Assembly: GCA_013288205.1 (NCBI GenBank)
Contig: JABDCH010000020.1
Span: 1 to 33,663, forward strand
Source of the DNA: Bacteroidota bacterium
Lineage (GTDB): Bacteria > Bacteroidota > Bacteroidia > JABEUT01
DNA length: 33,663 nt
Direction of reading: 5' to 3'
Below, piece after piece: positions 29,493-33,361 of the stretch. Position 1 is the stretch's first letter. Each line of letters begins with the position of its first letter. The translations under genes and the position numbers were made by a program. A model generated the notes under the pieces. That model saw only the letters and a list, made by a program, of their open reading frames with translations. It did not search any database and was not told the DNA's origin.

Positions 29493-29566
29493 GGCGAGGT
29501 AGCTCAGATGGTAAGAGCGTCGGATTCATAACCCGGAGGTCGAGGGTTCGATCCCCTCTCTCGCTA
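29493..29566 (+). tRNA. tRNA-Met (anticodon CAU)
   Basis: GGCGAGG acceptor pairing with TCTCGCT (two GU pairs), D stem GCTC/GAGC, anticodon loop TTCATAA, T arm GAGGG TTCGATC CCCTC, discriminator A. The CAU could also be tRNA-Ile2. Confidence 0.93.
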
Positions 29567-29571
29567 CAAAT

Positions 29572-29620
29572 AATAGGTTGTAAGTATTTGAATTATAAAT
29601 ATTTATAACCTATTTTGTTT
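29572..29620 (+). terminator. tRNA-proximal intrinsic terminator-like hairpin
   Basis: 18-nt arms AATAGGTTGTAAGTATTT / AAATATTTATAACCTATT (16/18 Watson-Crick, 2 G-U) followed by TTGTTTT. Confidence 0.6.
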
Positions 29621-29759
29621 TATAGAGTAACAGTAGAGTAACAAAAGTTAAGTATTTCTCGTTTTACTCTGCTTTTACAGGCTTCATTTCTTATTTATTG
29701 CAAGTGTGGCAATAAAAGCCACTCTTGCCAACATGACAGCAAAAAGTGACTTAATGAAT

Positions 29760-30258
29760 GAAATAAGTCGCCCAAATGGAGCTTATGTAATGAATAAGTC
29801 TCTTTTATGCGTTTTTCCGTATTATTTTGCATAATGTTACTTATGAGAAAACCCGATAAGCCATAATAGGAGTGAAGGCAGAGGGAAGTAATTTATTTTC
29901 TCATAAGACGACATTATGTAGAATAACATTGGAACGAATGCAATACCGGGCGAGCTCTGAGGTATGAAGGGCGGGGATTGCATGAATGCAGTTATATCAC
30001 TCCTAATGGATAAAATCGGAAAGAAGTCCTTAATTGTAAATTCGAGCGACGTGGCGAGATGCAGAGAGGAATGGGATGGTCCCGATACCAAGGTTTGGTT
30101 GGAGAGAAAGGGAAAGTGATTCCCTTAGAAAAAAGATTCGACAGGGAACTGATTAGGGAGAAAGAAAAAGATGTGGATCATGCAGAGAGATTCGACAACG
30201 AGCTTTTGACTTTAGGGGTCTTTAGTCATTTTAGATTTAACTTACATACTATTCACTC
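29760..30258 (+). other. Structured, purine-rich noncoding segment; possible truncated group II intron domain I or unrecognised ncRNA
   Basis: No credible CDS. Several inverted repeats: 29830-29851/29896-29918, 29867-29875/29997-30005, 29938-29944/29977-29983, and AAGGGAA/TTCCCTT 30108-30126. Short stretches recall group II intron domain I (GTGAAGGCAGA...GAAGTAA; CTCTGAGG; AATGGATAAAATCGGAAAGAAGTCC). Confidence 0.35.
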
Positions 30259-31515
30259 TTATATTTTCTCATTAAATCTCTGATAGATTTTTTTTGTTAA
30301 CCAGTCTTTCACATCGGTTTTAAAGTCATTATTTTCCATAATCTTATCAAAAATTTCTTCGTTGTCTTTCATCCGGTCAATAAGAGTTTGAATAAAGACT
30401 TCTTCAAAAGCGTATTTAAAGTTTTCAATAGGATTATTCTGGGCTCTGCTTTTTAAATCATCATTCTCGAGGAGTGCCTGCTCTATTTGTTCAAAGTAAA
30501 GTCGATCAGCGTCAGTAAATTCAGTTCCATACTTATCATTTAGGACATTGATAATCTTCGATAGTTTATCTTTTTCCTCCTTTGGTCTGCTGATACCTGC
30601 TTCGGTAGTTGGATCAAGTCCATGTTCCCCCTGCACTTGTAACACTAAATCACCCTCCGCAATTTTCTGTAAGCGGTAATATTCCAATGCTACTTCATTA
30701 TCTAATTTCAATCTATCAGTATAATCACTCTTTGGCAGTTTACTTAATAAGAATCTTCCATACGAATAAAGTTTCTCCAACGCTACATCCTGAAAGGGCA
30801 TAATTTGGGATAAGAATGAATATAACCGTACATAAGATGTCAACGACTTTTTAAATTCATCTTGCGTTTCCTCTGCAATGGCTTTAAATCTATCTACAGC
30901 AGGGTCAATATATCCGTAAAGTTTTCCCTGGTCTCTTAATGATGTATTGCCGGGCTTATAGAATACCTTTGCAAATGCATCCACTTCACTTTGGTAATAG
31001 ACATTACCTACATCCATTTTACCTTTCAAATCATATAAATGATTAGGGTTAGTGGTTTCTTTCATTGTGGTAAGTTCGTAATAGGGCTGGAAGGATTCAA
31101 TGATAGTTTCTCTGTCATTTGCAAAATCTAAAATGAAAGTATCTTCCTTGCCGGGATGGGTTCTATTAAGTCTTGATAGTGTTTGCACGGCCTTTACTCC
31201 TGAAAGTTTCTTATCCACATACATGGTATGTAGCAGAGGTTGATCGAAACCTGTTTGGTACTTATCTGCAACAAGTAAAACAGAATATTCAGGGGTATTA
31301 AACTTCTCAGGCAACTCCTTTTCTCCAAAACCATTTAACTGAGCTTCTGTTATACCTTCAGGGTAAAAGTCATCTATGACAGAGCCTGAAAAAGCAACCA
31401 ATGGTTTAATGTAGCTATATCCTTTTTCTTTAATGTACTCTTTAAACTCCAAGTAATAACGCAAGGCATGTTTACGGGAGGATGTTACTACCATTGCCTT
31501 TGCCTTTCCCCCTTA
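30259..31515 (-). pseudogene. hsdR: Type I restriction enzyme R subunit, C-terminal half only (HsdR remnant)
   Basis: GGKAKAMVVTSSRKHALRYYLEFKEYIKEKGY...YSVLLVADKYQTGFDQPLLHTMYVDKKLSGVKAVQTLSRLNRTHPGKEDTFILDFAN (helicase motifs V/VI) through to the C-terminus. No nuclease or Walker A/B part upstream. Similarity extends a few codons past the ATG at 31494, to a stop. Confidence 0.85.
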
Positions 31516-31603
31516 GAAGAGTATCCCTGTATCTTTTTAATGGGCCTTGGGCTTTCCCATAAAGAGAAATAAAAATCATAGGAAGTAGAAGTAGTTGTTT
31601 CAT
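31472..31603 (-). CDS. Short signal-peptide ORF fused out of frame to the hsdR remnant
   Basis: ATG at 31603 translates to MKQLLLLPMIFISLYGKAQGPLKRYRDTLLRGKGKGNGSNILP*: an N-terminal signal peptide followed by sequence that runs into the hsdR DNA in another frame. Confidence 0.45.
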   Translation of the reverse strand: MKQLLLLPMIFISLYGKAQGPLKRYRDTLLRGKGKGNGSNILP

Positions 31604-31615
31604 AAAATTAAGTAT

Positions 31616-33361
31616 TTAGTTAAGTATAGAAAGAATTGTATCTTTTGTTTCTTCTTCCAGTGCTAAAATATCGTTCCTTATTTCGGTAAGGCTTCTCAAG
31701 GGTTTGTATTTATAAAAGTACTTGGTAAAGTTTATTTCATAGCCCAGTTTGGTTTTAGCATGGTCAATCCAGGCATCAGGTAAATGAGGTAATACTTCCC
31801 GCTTAAAATAGCTTTCAATATTTTCTTTCAGTGGTACGTTTTCAAAATCACGTAAATCGGCATCTGCAATGGGGTTACCCTTCTTGTCTTTCTCTATTTG
31901 TTGTTTGGCGTTGCGCTTGGGGCGTTCAACCACTATACGGCTGTAGCCAAAATCTTCATTGTCAAAAATCTTACAATAATCATTCTCTTTATAATCATGG
32001 TAAATTTCAGTTATCCTTTTTATAGCTTGTTCATGTATTTCCTTTCGCTTATTGCCCAAGCTACGGAGCATCTTACTGTAAAAAGGGTTGCCTTTATCTT
32101 CCCTATCACTTCCCGTGGCATTTATTAATTGCACCTTGCCTTTACGCTCTTTGCTTTTACGATCACTAACTATCCATACATACGTTGAGATACCTGTATT
32201 GTAAAATAACTGGTCTGGCATGGCTATAATAGCTTCCAGCATATCATTTTCAATAATCCATTTGCGTATATAGCTGGGGCCGCTTCCGGCTGCTCCGCTA
32301 AAAAGAGGTGAACCATTAAATACAATTCCTATCCGGCTGCCCCCGGTGCTTCGTTTCATTTTGCTAATCATGTGCTGCAAAAACAGGAATGAGCCGTCAC
32401 TAATGGCGGGTAAACCTGCGCCAAACCTTCCTGCAAATCCTTTCAAAGCATATTCATCTTTAATTGATTTCTCAGCTTTTTTCCAATCTACTCCAAAAGG
32501 CGGATTGCTGAGCATGTAGTCAAAGGTTTCATCTTCAAGTCCGTCCTGAGTAAAGGAGTTGCCAAACTTAATATTGGAAGGATTCTGCCCTTTAATCAAC
32601 ATATCAGACTTGCAAATAGCAAAGGATTCCGGGTTTAGTTCCTGCCCGAAAGCTTCCAACTTGGCATCGGGGTTTAATTCGTTCAAATATTCCTCGGCAA
32701 TAGATAACATACCTCCCGTTCCACATGCGGGGTCATATAAAGTCTTAACTATGCCCTTTTTACGGAGTATATCCTTATCATTGACGAAAAGAATGTTCAC
32801 CATCAGGCGTATTACTTCACGGGGCGTAAAGTGCTCCCCTGCTGTTTCATTACTAAGCTCAGCAAACTTGCGGATAAGTTCCTCAAAAATATAGCCCATC
32901 TCAAGTGTGCTCACATCTTTGAACATATCACCCGCTTCAGCAAACTTTTTAATAATCATGTAAAGCAAATCATACTCATCCAGTTTTTTAATCTGGTCAT
33001 CAAAACTGAAATAGTCTATGATTTCTTTAGCGCCTATTGAAAAGCCGTTGATGTAGTTTCTTAGGTTAGCAGCAATGTTATTTGGGTCTTGAGCTAATCC
33101 ATAAAAATCAAACCTACTCCGATTATGAAATTTTGCTTTTGCAACATTATTTAAAATGGGTTCAAGTACCTCCGGCTTCTTGCCCTTATGCTGTTCGTAC
33201 GCTTTTAAAACATTCTTCTTTGTTGGCTCTAATACAAAGTCGAGCCTCCTTAAAACAGTTAACGGTAGTATGACTTTACCATAATCAGCCTGTTTGTAAT
33301 GACCTCTCAGTAAATCAGCTATTGACCAAAGAAAGTTTGCTTTCTCTTTAAAGTTCTTCAT
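31616..33361 (-). CDS. hsdM: Type I restriction-modification DNA methyltransferase M subunit (HsdM)
   Basis: NFLWSIADLLRGHYKQADYGKVILPLTVLRRLD; TLYDPACGTGGMLSIAEEYL; FDYMLSNPPFGVDWKKAE (N6-adenine MTase NPPF); GISTYVWIVSDRK. Confidence 0.96.
   Translation of the reverse strand: MKNFKEKANFLWSIADLLRGHYKQADYGKVILPLTVLRRLDFVLEPTKKNVLKAYEQHKGKKPEVLEPILNNVAKAKFHNRSRFDFYGLAQDPNNIAANLRNYINGFSIGAKEIIDYFSFDDQIKKLDEYDLLYMIIKKFAEAGDMFKDVSTLEMGYIFEELIRKFAELSNETAGEHFTPREVIRLMVNILFVNDKDILRKKGIVKTLYDPACGTGGMLSIAEEYLNELNPDAKLEAFGQELNPESFAICKSDMLIKGQNPSNIKFGNSFTQDGLEDETFDYMLSNPPFGVDWKKAEKSIKDEYALKGFAGRFGAGLPAISDGSFLFLQHMISKMKRSTGGSRIGIVFNGSPLFSGAAGSGPSYIRKWIIENDMLEAIIAMPDQLFYNTGISTYVWIVSDRKSKERKGKVQLINATGSDREDKGNPFYSKMLRSLGNKRKEIHEQAIKRITEIYHDYKENDYCKIFDNEDFGYSRIVVERPKRNAKQQIEKDKKGNPIADADLRDFENVPLKENIESYFKREVLPHLPDAWIDHAKTKLGYEINFTKYFYKYKPLRSLTEIRNDILALEEETKDTILSILN

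Follow-up and report, generated by a model that had tools for sequence, protein, structure and literature searches.

A noncoding segment between a tRNA-Met gene and a type I restriction remnant in a Bacteroidia MAG carries a long hairpin (hairpin A, 29822-29926). This hairpin is two dif-like sites in inverted order, each with a XerC-like arm, a centre and a XerD-like arm. The structured part of the segment is probably the Xer attachment site of a mobile element, folded from a single strand and similar to the attP of CTXphi. We infer that it folds in the cell, is recognised by Xer or Xer-like recombinases and is mobile. The window analysed is a whole contig (C20, 33.6 kb) of the 62%-complete MAG. 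The original prediction took the segment for a structured, purine-rich functional RNA, and proposed folding against dinucleotide shuffles, covariation among homologues and an Rfam search as checks.

Folding against dinucleotide shuffles showed that the structure is real but limited to 29690-29990. As RNA, this part gave -91.8, far better than its shuffles (-64.3 ± 4.9; z -5.6, 0/100), and 29818-29986 folded as single-stranded DNA gave a z of -6.4 (0/200 shuffles). The predicted long arms (29822/29830-29851 and 29896-29926) are present, with complementary pairs of 16 nt (88%) and 12 nt (100%). The ATGCAAT/ATTGCAT pairing (29938-29947 with 29974-29983) of a short hairpin, named stem-loop C (29938-29983), is present too. 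The remainder, 29987-30258, is a purine-rich unstructured tail that folded like shuffles on both strands (z +0.8 and +0.3), and the two hairpins proposed there (ACCAA/TTGGT and AAGGGAA/TTCCCTT) found no support on either strand. The purine bias itself holds for 29987-30210, whose 64% A+G puts it in the most extreme 0.7% of the window's stretches, but it sits in this unstructured part. A 9-nt match between TAGGAGTGA and TCACTCCTA also exists. The pseudoknot drawn from it is unsupported, because some 9-mer match at this spacing occurred in about 24% of Markov shuffles and the loop sequence of the match is not kept in a homologue (L012, see below).

A retron msr/msd, with TAGGAGTGA/TCACTCCTA as an a1/a2-like pairing, was rejected, as a reverse transcriptase was not recognised in the vicinity, and the 9-mer is not conserved and could well be a chance match. 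A protein fragment was rejected as well: four small ORFs had no Pfam match at E ≤ 1, in line with the predicted absence of a CDS, and six-frame translations had no recognisable similarity. Within the tail, 30152-30226 is 83% identical to a 75-bp stretch of the congener G005 (contig C43; L013 6689-6764), and each of the two adjoins the 3' end of a gene. The same G005 locus (L013 3646-6618) encodes a 990-aa protein with an RNase H-like domain (RNase_H_2) and an IS66-type transposase domain.

The arms of hairpin A resemble XerC/XerD sites, and therefore the genus's own dif was sought. Known sites of this kind are E. coli dif (GGTGCGCATAATGTATATTATGTTAAAT; PMC3025954) and the Acinetobacter Re27 site (ATTTAACATAATGGCTGTTATACGAAA; PMC3882262). 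The candidates in the genus have the form TNGTCCTATAA-6 nt-TTATGTTAAATAGC, and 222 of 368 Bacteroidia genomes contain the core pattern, TATAAN6TTATGTTAA, mostly as a single copy; dif candidates were recognised from sequence and copy number alone. Six candidate chromosomal dif sites from congeners were the sole input to a scoring matrix (cut-off at least 11), which picked both arms of hairpin A and nothing else in the 33.6-kb window. An inverted pair at this cut-off appeared in 0 of 60 Markov-shuffled windows. The matrix also picks the arms of most other hairpins, and GTCCTATAA..TTATGTTAAATAGC is common to the arms of several copies and to Bacteroidia dif. Because of the matrix and shuffle results, hairpin A was read as a pair of dif-like sites, one inverted relative to the other, whose centres measure 5-7 nt.

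Site 1 is the left arm (29822-29851, minus strand, score 19.1), with the XerC-like arm TTTTCTCATAA at 29851-29841, the 6-nt centre GTAACA and the XerD-like arm TTATGCAAAATAA at 29834-29822. Site 2 is the right arm (29896-29926, plus strand, score 17.6), with TTTTCTCATAA, the 7-nt centre GACGACA and the XerD-like arm TTATGTAGAATAA. The 44-nt loop between them (29852-29895, plus strand), placed by folds and alignment, is not conserved in sequence. Both arms score below true dif and their centres are unlike the host dif centre. The window copy does not lie at a known dif, and the host dif was not found in the incomplete MAG. Two features of a CTXphi-type site were found: two inverted dif-like sites by the congeneric matrix and, by computation, their pairing in the single strand (single-stranded DNA fold z -6.4; covariation).

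Homologues and their covariation, both among the checks named with the original prediction, supported a conserved structure. The congener G005 holds an 80%-identical copy of 29700-29980 (contig C47, L012) directly 3' of a secreted-protein-like gene. The identity starts at a small terminator-like hairpin (29700-29728, plus strand; GCAAGTGTGGC..GCCACTCTTGC). Of 28 compared pairs, three differ between window and L012, and all three are compensatory (TA to GC, TA to CG, AT to GC). A covariance model of hairpin A (R2), which scores the window copy at 60.2 bits (29821-29927; the window belongs to the training set), found the hairpin in 40 of 388 Bacteroidia genomes at E ≤ 0.01, R2 E-values being rough. 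Among 11 aligned divergent hairpins, the inner arms paired with their own partners at a mean energy of -13.0, which 0 of 20,000 permutations attained (-7.0 ± 1.1 for the re-pairings); the short outer flank gave no own-pairing signal in this test. Inverted duplication with gene conversion could also keep the arms complementary without folding.

The re-pairing result bears on another reading, in which the arms are two ordinary duplex dif/pdif-like sites in inverted order, of the Acinetobacter dif-module type, used by XerCD with the hairpin as a by-product. The arms are dif-like, pdif modules do move accessory genes between inverted sites (PMC6449649), accessory or defence genes lie beside many copies, and some loci have several sites. 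We consider this reading rather unlikely, since complementarity to the own arm exceeds the shared consensus (0/20,000), a loop of tens of nt leaves cargo no room, and centres that often differ in length between the sides (5 and 7 nt) suit a folded site better. No further dif-like site of at least 11 was found in the window, which ends at the contig end.

Stem-loop C (plus strand) has an outer stem ATGCAAT/ATTGCAT, an inner stem GCTCT/AGGGC and the loop GAGGTATGA. A class-wide DNA search found two copies of its 38-bp core in G039, and a covariance model (R1) added an untrained copy, G347:C44:11351-11396 (E 1e-9), in which the inner closing G-C is replaced by A-T. Stem-loop C follows the long hairpin at 11-172 nt in the window, G005, G039 and G347 copies. 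Its loop is conserved and strand-specific, and one interpretation of the form TGAGGNAYGAA is a GNA triloop flanked by tandem sheared G.A pairs. The class-search matches in G131, G378, G298 and G247 were weak and were judged chance or coding. Viral contigs scanned with long exact motifs gave no match, whereas dif-type patterns did, and blastn against plasmids and phages gave no useful match.

These data bear on the claim of a functional RNA. A conserved functional structure stood up in shuffles, homologues and covariation; its RNA nature is less supported. Hairpin A and stem-loop C could be transcribed as a structured noncoding RNA that acts in regulation, packaging or defence, and this would agree with the strong fold, the covariation, the strand-specific loop of stem-loop C and the structured sequence that surrounds both in other carriers. 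Against it, hairpin A is near-palindromic and close to strand-symmetric, so that its model scores both strands; its arms match dif, copies are found close to dif and next to Xer-like genes, and the copies have neither an Rfam match nor a fixed partner gene. At the gathering scores of Rfam 15 only the tRNA was found in the window, where matches up to E 10 look like chance, and 12 related loci gave tRNAs only. Group I/II introns, HEARO/omega RNA and other known RNAs were rejected for want of an Rfam match. A DNA recombination site was favoured over an RNA because of the missing Rfam match, the near strand symmetry of hairpin A, its dif-like arms and the copies near dif and Xer-like genes, and we regard the RNA as quite improbable, though less so for stem-loop C.

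Several copies lie close to dif: 2.4 kb away in the congener G002 (small ORFs between), 1.2 kb in G109 and 0.7 kb in G180. G109 has a second dif-like site elsewhere (L218) with a lower score, and which of its two is dif is uncertain. In G034, G041, G217 and G329 the match overlaps a dif-like site; here the model may be scoring dif itself, which makes these weaker evidence. G222 (L214 4687-6683) has five hairpin-A matches in 2 kb, with further dif-like sites around. In the viral contigs L255/L256, hairpin A lies about 0.6 kb beyond a terminase gene. Three other terminase-bearing viral contigs (L228, L236, L246) each carry a single exact dif of the Bacteroidota type close to the terminase gene, which suggests tailed phages that use host Xer.

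In G039, a DnaG-like primase gene and a tandem pair of tyrosine recombinase genes precede hairpin A, and a fragment of an RHS core follows it. This primase is present in 30 of 388 Bacteroidia genomes. The order primase-TyrR1-TyrR2 recurs in nearly all of the loci retrieved (the contig of L083 ends within the primase), and hairpin A lies downstream in many of them. The nearest models for TyrR1 and TyrR2 are XerD/XerC, with scores under the cut-offs. Hairpin A was present in 16 of 30 genomes with the primase versus 24 of 358 others. After removal of the training genomes, it was present in 8 of 22 with the module versus 21 of 355 without it (p 7e-5). L024 and L090, the loci of two genomes, contain tandem primase-TyrR-TyrR units, in which near-identical modules carry different RHS toxin tips with junctions at the codons YYPFG. 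This suggests a mobile element by which RHS tips are exchanged. The repeats end at YYPFG, and therefore RHS appears to be the target there, with hairpin A subterminal. Tandem copies of the primase-TyrR-TyrR element end about 200-400 bp from hairpin A, which was therefore rejected as its crossover core. An element boundary at RHS codons, outside hairpin A, speaks against the folded site in these RHS-borne modules.

A MITE-like repeat moved by an unrelated transposase, with only incidental likeness to dif, would explain why one 280-bp block occurs in unrelated contexts (window and L012) and why some loci hold two copies of hairpin A 0.4-1 kb apart. This is very improbable, given that both arms match dif, that dif sites are close and Xer-like recombinases adjoin, that the copy number per genome is low and that terminal inverted repeats were not recognised by eye at the block ends. 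An integron attC seems unlikely, as the arms fit dif better (R/L boxes were judged by eye); no integron integrase was recognised in the window.

The window copy lies in what is probably a genomic island. The tRNA-Met gene (29493-29567, plus strand) is its probable integration target, as the sequence downstream differs in every congener examined. Just 3' of this gene, at 29612-29646, are two repeats of TAGAGTAACA, also found ahead of a tyrosine integrase gene elsewhere in this genome (contig C34; L014 5782-5815). These repeats are probably integrase arm sites and the tRNA-Met gene an integration hotspot. Beyond the tail lie a C-terminal HsdR fragment (411 aa; 30259-31494, minus strand; T1R_D3-like in Pfam) and the type I methylase subunit HsdM (31616-33361, minus strand; N6_Mtase, HsdM_N). 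The fragment follows HsdM directly, with about 120 bp between and no hsdS there; as judged from its genes, the type I restriction system at 30259-33361 has decayed. Near hairpin A, no gene on this contig was recognised as encoding a recombinase. The window copy may be a remnant, because its centres are unlike host dif, no known dif is there and no recombinase gene was recognised.

Several other copies without the recombinase module also lie next to defence genes: Argonaute (L135) and HsdR (L145), as with HsdR/HsdM in the window. Hairpin A is 36 bp 3' of a Pycsar cyclase gene in L151, adjoins type III-like (L146) and type II (L143) restriction systems, and has a weak SIR2-like match beside it in L035. 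Other copies (e.g. L137, L138) have no defence neighbours. An enrichment of defence genes is an impression from the inspected loci alone. Recurrent neighbours in L135, L136, L146 and L154 (also L145 and L153) are a protein with a length of about 267 aa, another that resembles staphylococcal nuclease, and DUF6943, the last scanned in L146 only and judged by sequence likeness at the other loci.

For the folded attachment site, the following course would fit. While the carrying element is in single-stranded form, pairing of the two arms would create a single duplex site like dif. This site would let host XerC/XerD, or the Xer-like pair of some carriers, insert the element into a dif-like target in double-stranded DNA, in the manner of CTXphi attP(+). 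In the window, hairpin A would probably be the end of such an element, left next to the type I restriction remnant in the tRNA-Met island. Stem-loop C may be a companion, and from its loop sequence one strand is more likely than the other to be folded; our guess for its role is strand choice or binding by an element protein. It is conceivable, though doubtful, that a general gene-capture system of Bacteroidota and their phages keeps a folded inverted dif beside cargo such as Argonaute, Pycsar, restriction-modification systems and RHS toxin tips. Host Xer or element-borne Xer-like pairs would then insert the cargo single-stranded at dif-like sites. If true, this would be an integron-like route that spreads defence systems.

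We found no published description of the hairpin in the literature. Single-strand Xer integration has been worked out mainly for CTXphi, where the inverted attP1 and attP2 fold in single-stranded DNA and are used by XerC (PMC3089051, PMC5357621). For Bacteroidetes it was merely suggested, in the surveyed literature, for microviruses (PMC3091885). A folded dif site in about one tenth of Bacteroidia genomes, beside defence genes, RHS modules and terminases, would give a sequence handle on their movement and make Xer-dependent capture of defence genes directly testable.

CTXphi attP(+) and hairpin A are both two opposed dif-like sites from which pairing within a strand can make a single Xer site, and both have unequal centres. 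The spacing is a 44-nt loop in hairpin A and about 90 bp in CTXphi; the centres are 5-7 nt, versus 12 in attP1 and 6-7 in attP2. Unlike CTXphi, hairpin A is in a different phylum, is not part of a filamentous phage, is often away from dif and comes with stem-loop C. The Bacteroidetes microviruses BMV4-6 carry an extra dif-like sequence that their authors likened to CTXphi (PMC3091885). They share the phylum and dif-like att sites with hairpin A, but their sites lie at provirus ends and no microvirus genes were seen near the window copy; this comparison is by description. Acinetobacter pdif/dif modules likewise have inverted XerC/XerD-like sites with accessory genes (PMC3882262, PMC6449649), and their XerD arm ATTTAACATAA is common to several copies of hairpin A. 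However, pdif sites flank genes, whereas in hairpin A the two complementary sites have just tens of nt between them. Integron attC is also a folded single-strand site for a tyrosine recombinase, with an uneven centre and often 3' of a cargo gene. Hairpin A differs in its dif-like arms instead of attC R/L boxes, and neither an integron integrase nor a cassette array was recognised at the window copy. In conclusion, our best reading is a CTXphi-type folded Xer attachment site in a new setting, which accounts for most of the evidence.
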